Source: a virus. From it: 22,280 nucleotides of DNA. The notes beneath the pieces are model-generated. The model ran no database searches. It saw nothing but the letters and a program-made list of their open reading frames with translations, and was not told where the DNA came from. Within the stretch, counting starts at the first letter, position 1. Each line of letters opens with the position of its first letter. Location: positions 1 through 22,280 of IMG/VR virus record IMGVR_UViG_3300032116_001431. The stretch is one strand, 5' to 3'. Position numbers and translations under genes: made by a program. Below, piece after piece: positions 18,701 to 22,190 of this stretch.

Positions 18701-19644
18701 GTGGACAGTATCAAGAAATTGCGAATGCTGCCACAAGGATTTCGGAGCGTGGTTTGTTCCGTGTGTCTCGTAACGCTGGTATGAATGTCGAGGGTGCTGT
18801 GCGTATGGGGCAAGCATTAGATGCTATTCTTCCTGTAGAGCTTGGTGGTAAGGGTCTTGGTTTAGACCAAGCTGTTGGGCGTATCGAGAAGTTCCATTTC
18901 AACTACAGCAAGTTGTCTAACTTGGATGAACAGGCTAGAGCGTTTGTTCCGTTCTGGATTTTTATGAGCCGTAACTTGCCGTTACAGTTGGAGCAGATGT
19001 GGCTTAGCCCACGTACGTACGCTATGTATAATTCGTTGGCTCGCAACCTGAATGCCGGGGATGAGGATGACATTGTTCCAGAGTGGATTAAGGAAGGTGG
19101 CGGATTCAAGTTGCCGTTTGGTGGCAACTTGTATGCGGTGCCTGATATTGGTTATACACAGGTGCAACGTGATTTGGAAATGTTGAAGAACCCTGTTCGT
19201 GTTGGTCAAAACTTGAACCCGCTGTTGAAGACAGCGTTGGAGTATTGGTCTGGTCGTCAGTTCTATCAAAATATTCCTTTAAGTAGTGAGAAGTTTGTGC
19301 CTCTACAGGGTGCGTCTCGTGCTGCTGAACCTGTGTTGGCTTTGGCCAACTTGTTTGGTTTGGGTGAGGGTGTGCAGTCTTCTGGTGGGCAACGCCTTGC
19401 CTCACAGAAAGATTTGTACGCTGCCCTTAGTTTGATTCCTGGTTTGCAGGAAGTTGAGCGTTACTTGTTGCCTTCGACTGAACGTTCTGAGGAACGTCAA
19501 GGTTTGAATGTTTTCAACTTCTTGACTGGTGCGCCAATTACTACGGTTGGTGAGCGTCAGATTAACGCTGAGAAGTTGCGTAGACAGTTCGAGGAGCAGG
19601 ACCGTAGAAGCCGTGAAGAAGCCATTAGAAGAGGAGCACAGTGA
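12793..19644 (+). CDS. Giant coiled-coil virion protein (putative internal/ejection protein)
   Basis: A 2283-residue protein, nearly a third of the window. Residues 1-60 are Ala/Lys-rich with G-S-A-Y-G-A-S at 18-24. Residues 64-170 hold a Gly-rich amphipathic region (SPLGKAITKPLEVLDLGRAG, then WLDRIAGFAGDVVTDPLTYL) that could insert in a membrane. At about 354-383 is EIGYLDNYVPHIW, a motif recalled from other giant phage structural proteins. Residues about 517-1860 are mostly charged coiled coil rich in Lys, Glu, Ala and Gln. From about 1907 a globular region begins (RFHIRNALSATVMNY) with LDEQARAFVPFWIFMSRNLP near 2045. No lytic transglycosylase, tape-measure repeat or RNA polymerase motif was recognised. 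The position and size recall T7 gp16-like ejection proteins. No Shine-Dalgarno precedes the ATG. Its end overlaps the lysin start (GTGA). Confidence 0.7.
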   Translation: MAVDPRLELARRIAAQGGSAYGASGNSLKQQAAANYAAYSSKKKTGSADSGGPGGWKGLIAGALESPLGKAITKPLEVLDLGRAGIVSGIKELADLVDMNENTKASWNDFVGQTQRHIGFGDILAESGGLGNKWLDRIAGFAGDVVTDPLTYLTLGGSAVAGVTGRAASSAAIARQGVQNVARGRITKEALDDIITRAGKYGVGDLTSAERTMFGFSQPGIYFNNKYRLVGGKTGENISRKLARGRARITGSGPVQKLVTTRDGLLRSAPQGLEEAITKLATGRGAISATQAATFIASNNERAAVGGAFAGTWSAVGRELGKSIDGNEEAIAITRALESGADPNNIKAATFRKFFDDVRESFKLSTGEEIGYLDNYVPHIWSRSGRRLLAGDEELARDLGATMFATVDDVTQSPFAQARRIKAGKYKILGKEVIFKTGTAEDINATLRRAFPDRITEDVLETDIRRIADAYVQGMGKGVGDKALVETLKKMGVGIDDKEAFKFVKDIAGTKEANRAAAAEMKELLDGTADALKSLETSAKQSITLATKSLKDLLAVRLSNQKKVFQDLVQRSDNIFSQMSSDALSVDAKISALHAEQLDLSDAIKLNENIRIAKITKLNNDIAKHGEDMRALRKDRLAIRRELMNEVEDVKARSNQLNATLDTYNDMAETLQKLKDDVDKKVNMGKKFESKLPEAAKQAMGKSTIKQQQQLDAVSTGRPAEEVTQVVRIGTQGDESFGLAKRLRLDGESTGYLLRRSIDNAGLILPDDVMEEVTRIKDLIYDSVARGGVVPEQKLNRALQNVQRFEADVIKKQNALNGKRGRNLSASTIRKAENDLYNAQKRLENAQKIYKDLTEGVDGSVVRGEFRFQPEIPDSNTKQFLDEARQELNSLRGQLENITTPQIRQIDSGVRSLTAMRETAGPNLQRIDDEIRRLGLIKERAVREETARINRLIQEAESNVKRLGAISRAYDGPIELTEREIREQVRNQAQRQLKSDLARVSQATYDAVFAETGLESAANDARNVFEKLAKALETNARTLNDEGAARAYQYAAQEQLNQAVQKARTSIDFGRRMRIIDAEMAKTNKKLTKVEREVLEDSVMIEVIESQNRSLSNRIKTINEQIQNYRVSSGKAVERDTALGLAIARGEEQAVATWGQLREYLNDLNDVWQEYAALTKASRTKTAGLYSSVGEMVADNRSIEQILSEFKNQGLTMISGRTARRDIDKVFINTRNEIQQNIALLITGGDPVAAKNYIQSGRLKNLIQRTRITGEDFSTAKGLKGEIQPTKKGVQYGPESANAWVEEIQRVAIEAAQKESGISFAGGAKETGKMILAEKAAKTQIQELENLRSYNLRLVNGLKSRPRVSATTKEVQDSVRRMLEQAESYDALAAAERAAKRPKSAKRAQDIGQSFRNAASQMREFGVPPQGRRVSARNIIDGTSGVQEARSLTREFTKLNSEIVALEKQMDAIYSEGALATAVAGMPGGRGKTVLSRAKDYLKVLDERLAQTAETKSEIATMKPIKQRLAGLDDQLKTARANLDAARTKRNDILSRGKRFTKKQQQDLENLQNTVRDLETQRGAVRDELSLNSESRKNVIADRAKLELEKKNLEDAMERYIPLEDRVASAANTLKTKTDELKAVSKRSQAELEMEASIEKLKAQTRVAPYEVNPDALIAAGDLAQTQVLIGGIRETYDASVAAARNSLDEIERSKASIESWIPAVEQVLKDIPKLKKKGNYENINEVFEWIEESYKLIDPDGLTQRIAGLPNDMTPEIIQDTSMLYGMGMKMSDIVAAINSLPTPESRTSLSLAMRAHEDAAKLMALSAERAPLEEAIKTAKAGEFVTVMQRALIDGFQEIGNTGVYAAEEMAPLFQRVLEIKPKDAQGIVQAINKYTEIWKAIKTTSPRFHIRNALSATVMNYVAGVSTKNMLRGVDVWRAFSRNPLGWLNDIDPALRPYAKRALDAVFAAGGGQYQEIANAATRISERGLFRVSRNAGMNVEGAVRMGQALDAILPVELGGKGLGLDQAVGRIEKFHFNYSKLSNLDEQARAFVPFWIFMSRNLPLQLEQMWLSPRTYAMYNSLARNLNAGDEDDIVPEWIKEGGGFKLPFGGNLYAVPDIGYTQVQRDLEMLKNPVRVGQNLNPLLKTALEYWSGRQFYQNIPLSSEKFVPLQGASRAAEPVLALANLFGLGEGVQSSGGQRLASQKDLYAALSLIPGLQEVERYLLPSTERSEERQGLNVFNFLTGAPITTVGERQINAEKLRRQFEEQDRRSREEAIRRGAQ

Positions 19645-20162
19645 AGCTGAATTATCCAACTAAGAGATTGGTTGTGCCTGAAGCTTTGGGACATGTAGCC
19701 AATGGGAAGCTTCCCAGAAGGCTGCTACGTAAAACAAAAGCTGGAGGGTACCTGTATGTACCCGTTGCCAAGTCTTTCAATGCTATGTGGAAGCATGCAA
19801 GGTCTGAGGGTGTTGATTTGAGGTTGACTGGCAACGGTTATCGTTCGTATGAACGTCAGTACGTCATGTTTATGGACCGTTTCAGTTTGAAGAATGAAGG
19901 CAGAATCCCTACGGTGATTCGCCGTTTCGATAAGAAGACGTATTACTTGAAGCGTGGAAAGGCACCTAGTGCGGTGCCAGGTACATCTAATCATGGTTAT
20001 GGTTTGGCTGTTGATTTTGATTTGTCTGACCCTGCTGTGTTCGCATGGCTGGATAAGAATGCACCCACATACGGTTTCTATTTACAGGGTAAGCCTGTTC
20101 GCCCTGATGGCTCAAAGAATCCTGAGTATGAGCCGTGGCATTGGCAGAAGGTTGACGCTTAA
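19641..20162 (+). CDS. Endolysin, M15 family (VanY/L-alanyl-D-glutamate peptidase type)
   Basis: A 173-residue zinc peptidase that should cut peptide cross-links of host peptidoglycan. It starts at GTG (19641) with GAGGAG four bases upstream, overlapping the stop of the giant gene by four bases. The M15 signature is complete: GNGYRSYERQ near 65-73; S-N-H-G-Y-G-L-A-V-D at 116-125, giving zinc ligands His118 and Asp125; and E-P-W-H-W at 164-168, giving catalytic Glu164 and ligand His167. No signal peptide or separate wall-binding domain is present, so it would rely on a holin, probably one of the membrane proteins at 39-423. Coupling to a virion gene allows the alternative of a virion-borne wall hydrolase. 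Its stop overlaps that of the convergent gene in a shared TTAA. Confidence 0.9.
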   Translation: MKLNYPTKRLVVPEALGHVANGKLPRRLLRKTKAGGYLYVPVAKSFNAMWKHARSEGVDLRLTGNGYRSYERQYVMFMDRFSLKNEGRIPTVIRRFDKKTYYLKRGKAPSAVPGTSNHGYGLAVDFDLSDPAVFAWLDKNAPTYGFYLQGKPVRPDGSKNPEYEPWHWQKVDA

Positions 20163-20764
20163 CGTTCCTGCACCATAGTGCTGAATGGTGGACCTGTGTA
20201 CGGGTCAAACTTTGAAGCAACCTGCAGTGATTGCAGGATTGCTTTCTTGGCTGTCGCTTGTGGGATGTTGTTATTTTTGGCTAACACAGCTAGTGCACCC
20301 AATGCGTATGGTGCGCCTGTTCCTAGTGCGTAGATGCCTGTGGAGTCGGAAGTCCAGCTGTAGTCGCCTTCAATAACATAGATTGTGCCATGTATTGCGA
20401 CAAGTATGGTTGAACCATGTTCTGCAAGGTGTTCAGAAGAATCTCGTTCGGGCATGGCGTATCCTTGCAGTTCGAAGCATTCTCGCAGGGCAGGGATAAA
20501 CTTATTTGTAATGAATGCATCAAGTTTCTTTCCTTTGGTTGTGGGTGATGGTACTGGTGGGGTGAATGAGTGGTGCAGGATGTTGATTGCTCGTACGTCT
20601 CCTGCTGCTCCAAGAATGTATTTGCCGTTGAACGCTATCTTGGATGAGCCTGCACCTAGTGTGGTGATTTGGTACGCTAACCCGCCCTCATCGAATGATG
20701 AGATGCGGGAGTCGGTGCCGATTGCTGCGTAGCTGGAACCTTGTATTGCAACAATGGTTGTCAT
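20159..20764 (-). CDS. Proteasome beta-subunit/HslV-like Ntn hydrolase
   Basis: A 201-residue protein starting at the ATG at 20764, which overlaps the upstream stop (ATGA); an in-frame ATG 12 bases earlier (20776) would add MGRR and is disfavoured. With this start the protein begins M-T-T-I-V-A, so removal of Met exposes a threonine. Counting that as Thr1, Asp17 falls in IGTDSR exactly as in proteasome beta subunits; Lys41 in SSKIAFNGKYILGAAGD matches Lys33 after a short insertion; and GTGAPYALGAL at 147-157 matches the SGSPYALG segment. The C-terminal helix (KKAILQSLQVASKFDPYTG) also fits. Such proteins form barrels with the active site inside. No alpha subunit or ATPase is in the window. 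Function in the phage is unknown; protease activity is likely but unproven. Confidence 0.8.
   Translation of the reverse strand: MTTIVAIQGSSYAAIGTDSRISSFDEGGLAYQITTLGAGSSKIAFNGKYILGAAGDVRAINILHHSFTPPVPSPTTKGKKLDAFITNKFIPALRECFELQGYAMPERDSSEHLAEHGSTILVAIHGTIYVIEGDYSWTSDSTGIYALGTGAPYALGALAVLAKNNNIPQATAKKAILQSLQVASKFDPYTGPPFSTMVQER
20214..20250 (+). terminator. Hairpin past the convergent stops, possible plus-strand terminator
   Basis: GAAGCAA-CCTGCA, loop GTGAT, then TGCAGG, a bulged A and TTGCTTTC: a stem of about 12 bp with one bulge, followed by the T-rich TTTCTTGG. It lies about 50 bases past the lysin stop, inside the antisense hydrolase gene. On the minus strand no T-run follows it. It could end rightward late transcripts; the T-tract is weak. 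Confidence 0.4.
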
Positions 20765-21042
20765 TCGTCTTCCCAAACATCTATGTCGTCACGGTCTAAT
20801 GCGTACTCCATTGTGTCAATCAATGCAGCAAGTATCGACATGCCCATCATCCATGAGTCCATATCTCCGCCTTGCATTAAATGAAATGCACGCACAGCAT
20901 GAATCATGTCTTCTTGTGTCATAAGGACTGTCATCTCATAGTATGTTTCTTGTCCTTTGATTATTTTGTTTGCGTTTGCCTGAATTTGTTCCACCTGTTC
21001 TGATGGAATGAATTCATTTATCCAGTCGTCTTTGTCGCTCAT
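20761..21042 (-). CDS. Small acidic protein of unknown function
   Basis: A 93-residue protein of no recognised family. It is acidic (ends DRDDIDVWEDE) and rich in methionine (10 of 93). The first 30 residues are charged (MSDKDDWINEFIPSEQVEQI); residues 35-85 look like two or three helices (YYEMTVLMTQEDMIHAVRAF, then MMGMSILAALIDTMEYALD). The Met-rich SWMMGMSILAALI is hydrophobic but short for a membrane span and may be a protein-binding helix. It overlaps the preceding gene's end by 29 bases and the hydrolase start by ATGA, so it is translated just before the proteasome-like protein. That makes an adaptor, inhibitor or partner of the hydrolase possible, but this is only context. Confidence 0.6.
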   Translation of the reverse strand: MSDKDDWINEFIPSEQVEQIQANANKIIKGQETYYEMTVLMTQEDMIHAVRAFHLMQGGDMDSWMMGMSILAALIDTMEYALDRDDIDVWEDE

Positions 21043-21196: not shown

Positions 21197-21369
21197 TGCT
21201 GTTGGTTCTCTTCTTTCATCGACTTTTCGATTTCTGTGGCTACTTGAACAAGTTGCTCTATTGTTTGTGCACCAAACTTTTCTTCGATGATATAGATAAG
21301 TGCAAAGATGTTTGCTACTACCCAGAACATATCAATCTGTTCACGGTCTTGATTTTCGTTTTCGCTCAT
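21193..21369 (-). CDS. Very small protein of unknown function (58 residues)
   Basis: Reading the minus strand from the ATG at 21369 gives 58 residues starting MSENENQDREQIDMFWVVAN and ending in EENQQQ, with the stop at 21193-21195. The middle MFWVVANIFALIYIIEE is hydrophobic, flanked by an acidic N-terminus and a charged helix (IEQLVQVATEIEKSMKEE). It could be a single membrane span or the core of a helical hairpin. Its start overlaps the sigma4-Nmad1 gene's stop (ATGA) with AGGAGAAG upstream, and its stop overlaps the next start (ATGA). It fills what would otherwise be the only gap in this operon. No family was recognised. Confidence 0.6.
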   Translation of the reverse strand: MSENENQDREQIDMFWVVANIFALIYIIEEKFGAQTIEQLVQVATEIEKSMKEENQQQ

Positions 21370-22190
21370 TGTTCTTCTCCTAGTTCGAGCTGGAATGTTC
21401 CGTCAAGGAACATGAGTGCTATTAGACAGTATCCCACGATGTCGTGGATTGTGTCTACCAGTGACTCGTGGCTGGGTTCTCTTTTCTTTAACATCAAGTT
21501 TTTGTATCGCTCAATCTTATCAGACAATCTGACAACGATACCGATGAGACCAAAGCTATTGATGTTGCCGTGTCCGTAGTCTCGTTGCTTGCCGATTACC
21601 ATCGACAGCATCTCGCCTGTATCCCATTCGTCTAGTTCACGAGCGAGCGCAACTGTGCGCTTCGCTAAAATAAGAAATGAATCTGAGCGTGGCTCCGTAT
21701 CGGCTAACACAGCTTGGCGCATGTATTCGAGTACGTCTTCCATGTAGGCGATTGACGACGGACGTTGACCGTCTGTGTCGGAGATTGCCATCATCCATTG
21801 TGTTGCGGATTCTTCCCATGTGGAAGCCATTTGAATCTTCTTTCGTATTTTGGTGTCTTGTGACATTAGTGCTTTTAGTTTAGCGAATGCTTGGTTTCTT
21901 AGTCTCCACACGTGAGTTTTAGTGAAAGACAATTCATCGGCAATGTTTTGCAATGATTTATTTTCACTCATGATTGCGTTAACAATCCAGAGTTCCCTTG
22001 GGTCTAACTCATACATGTAGTTGGAGATGAGTTCTTTCATCTCCATTCTTCCCCACTGTTCATCATCTATTTCTTCGTGGGGTGCAGCCATCATTATGGC
22101 TTCATAGTTGATTCTGCCATCACCATACTGTGTTGGCTTAGCCCTCATGTTAATGAGTTGCTCGTATGGGGTTTCTCTACGCTTCGTCAT
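21366..22190 (-). CDS. Fusion of a sigma-region-4-like helix-turn-helix and a DUF1599/Nmad1-like domain
   Basis: A 274-residue protein with two parts. Residues 62-109 read as a sigma-factor region 4: LDPRELWIVNAIMSENKSLQ followed by NIADELSFTKTHVWRLRNQA, with the recognition helix about 90-101 and a trailing AFAKLKALM. No region 2 is seen, so it is not a whole sigma factor. Residues about 193-262 carry KQRDYGHGN, RLSDKIERYKNL, ES..DT..D and GYCLIAL, the pattern of DUF1599 (Nmad1, linked by others to phage nucleotide-modification clusters). The acidic and Arg residues suggest metal or nucleotide binding. The middle (110-190) is helical and unassigned. It may regulate transcription in response to, or alongside, nucleotide metabolism; that is inference. 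Its first 14 bases overlap the preceding gene. Confidence 0.7.
   Translation of the reverse strand: MTKRRETPYEQLINMRAKPTQYGDGRINYEAIMMAAPHEEIDDEQWGRMEMKELISNYMYELDPRELWIVNAIMSENKSLQNIADELSFTKTHVWRLRNQAFAKLKALMSQDTKIRKKIQMASTWEESATQWMMAISDTDGQRPSSIAYMEDVLEYMRQAVLADTEPRSDSFLILAKRTVALARELDEWDTGEMLSMVIGKQRDYGHGNINSFGLIGIVVRLSDKIERYKNLMLKKREPSHESLVDTIHDIVGYCLIALMFLDGTFQLELGEEQ

Follow-up and report, generated by a model that had tools for sequence, protein, structure and literature searches.

What use does a tailed phage have for a single proteasome-like gene? The question is raised by a 22,280-base viral record that represents part of a tailed, freshwater-type phage; the whole of this stretch is referred to here as the window. 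Its plus strand encodes a portal, a scaffold-like protein, a capsid, an adaptor, a 2,283-aa protein and a VanY/M15 peptidase, and is followed by a block of minus-strand genes. Within this block, the open reading frame 20764-20159 (minus strand, ATG start) encodes a 201-aa member of the proteasome/HslV superfamily of Ntn hydrolases, with the translation MTTIVAIQGSSYAAIGTDSRIS...SSKIAFNGKYILGAAGD...LGTGAPYALG...KFDPYTGPP. The ATG (20764-20762) overlaps the stop codon (TGA, 20763-20761) of the gene that precedes it (21042-20761, minus strand); this ATGA overlap and the M-T-T start had been pointed out in a preliminary description of the DNA, and both are present in the translated frame. The upstream gene encodes an acidic 93-aa protein for which profile searches gave no convincing family match; it is found in the same place in two relatives (L002 and L003), and its translation may be coupled to that of the peptidase gene. 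At its 3' end, the peptidase gene has a 4-base overlap with the stop of the convergent VanY/M15-type gene (19641-20162, plus strand; PF02557, 4.4e-17), which is the last gene of the late module.

An alternative TTG start at 20776 would add Met-Gly-Arg-Arg to the protein. In the relatives examined, the M/V-T-T start is at the same position and the preceding sequence is unrelated; consequently, the ATG is the likely start. At the level of sequence, this supports the earlier proposal that Met removal would leave a bare Thr1 with no propeptide. A bare N-terminal Thr is not unusual (Fuchs et al., PMC8665760). Compared with the closest relative, the peptidase gene has a dN/dS ratio of 0.03 (154 codons); the nine pairs that could be measured give 0-0.14, and the six closest of them 0-0.07. 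These low ratios show that the reading frame is not a chance one; the gene is under strong purifying selection. In a 93%-identical relative (L001, 9227-9721), the match ends at about residue 155 and is followed by unrelated sequence, which reflects either recombination or an assembly join.

Profile searches match the protein to phrog_1040 ('peptidase HslV family') at 6.2e-21 over residues 1-200; this family also takes in homologues from Actinomycetia phage DSL-LC01, Arthrobacter phage Pitbull and Microbacterium phages. The match to the Pfam Proteasome family (PF00227) is slightly short of the cut-off at 0.0011, and the HslV models of NCBIfam are matched at 1e-6 to 1e-5, far below their cut-offs. 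An AlphaFold2 model based on 40 sequences from the window and the loci (pLDDT 84.9, pTM 0.83) has paired sheets and four helices (H1, 57-66; H2, 78-99; H3, 151-161; H4, 169-186). The nearest solved structures in Foldseek are BPH, HslV, 20S beta and Anbu (probability 1.00, best E 6e-11), which places the model inside the Ntn hydrolase fold and bears out the proteasome/HslV fold first suggested for it. Foldseek also returns 37 predicted viral proteins at E < 0.001, the top one being a phage 'HslV' protein. A defence-family scan gave no match for the peptidase. Identity with the 20S proteasome beta subunit was rejected, as the score against the archaeal model is 15.6 bits vs a cut-off of 224 (the bacterial model is not listed for the peptidase).

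The active site is strongly conserved. Residues are numbered with the Thr after Met as 1, and conservation was counted over 93 distinct viral sequences. Thr1, Asp17 and Lys41, the three residues on which the first assignment leaned and which it expected in close homologues, are invariant in all 93, as are Gly54, Gly147 and Gly149. Thr1 (codon 20759-20761, minus strand) is the predicted N-terminal nucleophile; Asp17 is encoded at 20711-20713 and Lys41, within the motif SSKI, at 20639-20641 (both minus strand). Lys41, the equivalent of Lys33 in HslV and 20S beta, aligns with E. coli HslV Lys33 after an S3/S4 hairpin that is longer by 8 residues. From the alignment, Gly54 (20600-20602, minus strand) would be the equivalent of the oxyanion-hole Gly47. 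Residue 148 (20318-20320, minus strand) is Thr in 68/93 sequences and Ser in 25/93; in the Asp186-x-x-Thr189 motif (20195-20206, minus strand), Asp is found in 92/93 sequences and Thr in 92/93, with one Ser. We take Thr1, Asp17, Lys41, Gly54, residue 148, Asp186 and Thr189 to correspond to Thr1, Asp17, Lys33, Gly47, Ser129, Asp166 and Ser169 of the 20S proteasome. Asp17, the Lys-Ile pair before the KYILGAAGD strand and the GTGAPYALG segment, all noted previously, are found in the translation. The peptidase almost certainly belongs to the proteasome superfamily of Ntn hydrolases and has an intact active site; overall, the preliminary description of the reading frame, which named no strand, is confirmed.

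The same minus-strand block of the window encodes a protein with a sigma70 region-4-like HTH and DUF1599 (21366-22190, minus strand; profile matches), a family that often neighbours the peptidase in relatives. Other phages keep the DUF1599-side part of this protein without a recognised HTH. The 38,774-base contig of L002 (G001), which is among the closest relatives, is taken as complete on account of the direct repeat of about 252 bases at its termini. In G001, the peptidase gene is the last gene of a minus-strand block that also encodes a DnaB helicase, a PD-(D/E)XK nuclease, RusA and the sigma-like protein. The peptidase gene ends an early-type replication and regulation block that faces the late genes; its position suggests early timing. 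G001 also encodes a GATase_4-type protein adjoining an Amidoligase_2 protein (L106, 2300-4413). A tagging link recalling Pup ligase was considered for this pair and rejected, since Amidoligase_2 is found in only 2/23 records searched.

Taken together, the fold, the intact active site, the strong purifying selection and the early-type position of the gene are best explained, with a probability of roughly 60%, by a catalytically competent N-terminal-threonine hydrolase of a phage-specific clade, which would be chambered, self-compartmentalising and early-expressed and would act in takeover. Host Met-aminopeptidase would expose Thr1. By analogy with HslV and BPH, the subunits would then close into a chamber of one ring or two, and this chamber may degrade proteins of the host or of the phage during takeover, either independently of ATP or with the help of an AAA unfoldase of the host.

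The preliminary description had also offered a use in virion maturation. In such a role, the peptidase would process scaffold, capsid or ejection proteins during assembly. No recognised prohead protease is found among the window structural genes examined, and one lineage (L019, L020, L034 and similar) has its portal gene 2-3 genes downstream of the peptidase gene, which makes a link to assembly conceivable. However, the early-type block and the structural genes converge, both in the window and in its closest relatives, and the peptidase gene accompanies very different structural modules. Moreover, Microbacterium phage LeeroyJenkins has a capsid maturation protease annotated separately from its peptidase homologue. 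A maturation role is highly unlikely on this evidence, and the peptidase is probably not a virion-maturation enzyme.

Fold and Thr1 are not in themselves proof of a protease, since connectase, a monomeric ligase, belongs to the same superfamily (PMC8665760). Like connectase, the window protein could be a specific Ntn amidase or transpeptidase acting on one target instead of a chambered bulk protease; conserved blocks beyond the catalytic core that are particular to the phage clade (FxPPxP, GYxxPE and DYSWTSD) can be read in this way. In contrast, the large connectase-type S3/S4 insertion is missing, the model contains all four helices (H1-H4) of the ring-forming members, and ring formers are the best structural matches. 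A single-target enzyme is distinctly unlikely, and the chambered hydrolase is preferred.

Relatives of the peptidase are found in diverse phages. In a tblastn search with a permissive limit, the best phage record is Actinomycetia phage DSL-LC01 (50% identity over 99%, E 2e-54); other phage records have about 24-31% identity to the peptidase. In IMG/VR, a first scan found 201 loci and a second scan, which overlaps with it, 177. The relatives occupy at least five distinct gene neighbourhoods in unrelated genome contexts. The first is that of small window-like phages with the sigma-like/DUF1599 gene, and the second that of mid-size phages with a gene of the same family, a second HTH-type protein and an FmdB-type zinc ribbon. 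In the third, a metallophosphoesterase gene precedes the peptidase gene and the portal gene follows it; the fourth comprises phages with WhiB after the peptidase, and the fifth jumbo phages with a UDG-family gene. Within four genes of the peptidase, the commonest neighbours are the metallophosphoesterase (43/91 loci) and WhiB (32/91). The metallophosphoesterase is calcineurin-like (L019, 320-1480, and relatives) and is located one or two genes upstream of the peptidase.

The WhiB neighbour indicates actinobacterial hosts for the phages that carry it, which agrees with the host predicted in the literature for DSL-LC01 (PMC10611076). A phage subunit could also act as a decoy or poison by co-assembling with the 20S proteasome or HslV of its host. 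Actinobacteria are known to have 20S proteasomes, and some relatives infect or probably infect Actinobacteria, given the presence of WhiB near the gene. However, the catalytic residues are fully conserved, and identity to 20S beta or HslV is only about 15-22% by structural alignment; a decoy is extremely improbable, and a catalytically competent hydrolase accounts better for the gene.

In a cellular collection of about 85,000 genomes, a seed-based scan, which reaches close relatives only, gave a single match (L085). This contig is part of a 'Gammaproteobacteria' MAG, has a WhiB-family neighbour and encodes a peptidase with a 100% identical counterpart on a viral contig; it is probably a phage contig. 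A cellular origin of the peptidase was rejected on the basis of this identity. In legume-nodulating alpha- and betaproteobacteria, namely Rhizobium, Sinorhizobium, Mesorhizobium and Paraburkholderia, large plasmids carry homologues of the peptidase (L094, 9001-9546; L095; L096); Streptomyces plasmids carry homologues as well. In Rhizobium sp. CB3090, the homologue lies about 7 kb from nifH.

Proteasome-like peptidases may work with an unfoldase. It had been noted earlier that there is no alpha ring or unfoldase nearby, and this holds: the window contains no second superfamily member that could be an alpha subunit, and no AAA_2 match that could represent HslU is found in either the window or G001. 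The superfamily member is single-copy in 19/20 related records. One jumbo contig (G014, 267,766 bases) contains two diverged peptidase copies (32096-32698 and 251442-252044), each with an AAA gene of its own upstream; this is due to either a real duplication or a chimeric assembly.

Larger relatives raise the prospect that the peptidase works only with an AAA unfoldase, host- or phage-encoded, as HslV does with HslU. Seven large contigs encode a CDC48/PAN-like AAA protein (about 535 aa) some 9-14 kb upstream of the peptidase in the same orientation; 6/7 also encode a ClpB-D2-like AAA protein, and no ClpP is found in them. In jumbo freshwater phages (L086, 306-1907; L087, L088, L089; L108-L116; L201-L233), the N-terminal domain of the CDC48/PAN-like protein matches no named family. 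The separate ClpB-D2-only AAA protein of jumbo freshwater phages is 354 aa long in L091, with frames of up to 509 aa, and is likewise found without ClpP. However, the peptidase is absent from 6/18 contigs with a closely related CDC48/PAN-like AAA protein, including contigs of 193.9, 193.5 and 179.6 kb; these three are of near-genome length and retain the ClpB-D2-like protein. There is no HbYX motif at the C-termini of the AAA proteins, and the complete 38.8-kb genome of G001 has no AAA, AAA_2 or ClpP match. These phage-encoded AAA proteins were rejected as obligate partners because both AAA types persist without the peptidase in near-genome-length relatives. As AAA proteins are kept without the peptidase and lack the HbYX motif, pairing between the two is at most facultative. 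Strict dependence on an AAA unfoldase is unlikely, and a self-compartmentalising hydrolase is the better reading.

More broadly, freshwater phages ranging from about 38 kb to more than 200 kb may share a one-gene, ATP-independent, proteasome-like chamber which serves early host takeover or counter-defence, operates without an alpha ring, a tag or a dedicated unfoldase, and has been passed between unrelated phages. This generalisation is tentative and open to considerable doubt.

Phage-borne proteasome homologues have been described previously. Fuchs, Alva and Lupas (2021) reported AAH, PPH, CPH and others, the functions of which are unknown, and found no co-occurring AAA partner (PMC8665760). 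HslV-like or proteasome-like genes are mentioned without tests in papers on individual phages (PMC7289586, PMC7823757), and we found no paper in the literature that tests what phage proteasome-like subunits do. The window peptidase represents a well-conserved new clade of these already described homologues. The clade is a well-bounded case, with small genomes (38.8 kb for the complete one), a single catalytic gene, an active site that does not vary and no demonstrable phage-encoded partner. Work on one recombinant protein could tell whether self-compartmentalising threonine proteases are put to use by a virus, and the substrates would reveal what the phage needs removed. The 2021 survey reported no Actinobacteria-specific phage with AAH (PMC8665760); the present analysis adds proteasome homologues, not necessarily AAH, for actinobacteriophages, namely phages of Arthrobacter and Microbacterium and WhiB-bearing phages.

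The window peptidase resembles AAH, PPH and CPH in being of the Group I type, which is found in tailed phages and has no propeptide, no C-terminal S12/H5 and an intact Thr1-Asp-Lys (PMC8665760). The plasmid-borne homologues of rhizobia and Streptomyces are consistent with the hosts reported for AAH. In contrast, the tree places the peptidase in one phage clade with DSL-LC01, outside the rhizobial/Streptomyces/Moorella group; this tree, which covers phage homologues, the rhizobial/Streptomyces/Moorella group and HslV, has long branches and weakly supported deep forks. PPH was rejected as an identity: it is about 140 residues long and lacks H2, whereas the window peptidase has 201 residues and all four helices in the model. 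The M-T-T start, Asp17, the equivalent of Lys33 and the G-S/T-G motif are shared with HslV (ClpQ). However, HslV identity was rejected on the equivalog cut-offs (28.4 vs 137 bits and 25.1 vs 157.75 bits); moreover, there is no HslU alongside and the branch is 6.8 changes per site. BPH, the double-ring peptidase of Thiobacillus and Cupriavidus, is the best structural match (TM 0.68-0.72), with a longer pore-loop region after H2 as a further likeness; it differs in that identity is 17-20% and the BPH gene is cellular. The clade profile matches 5ovs at only 8e-4, similar to several HslV chains. The window peptidase shares its PHROG with the phage homologues of phrog_1040, whose profile it matches at full length; the window clade is distinguished from them by its longer S3/S4 hairpin and its own conserved loops.
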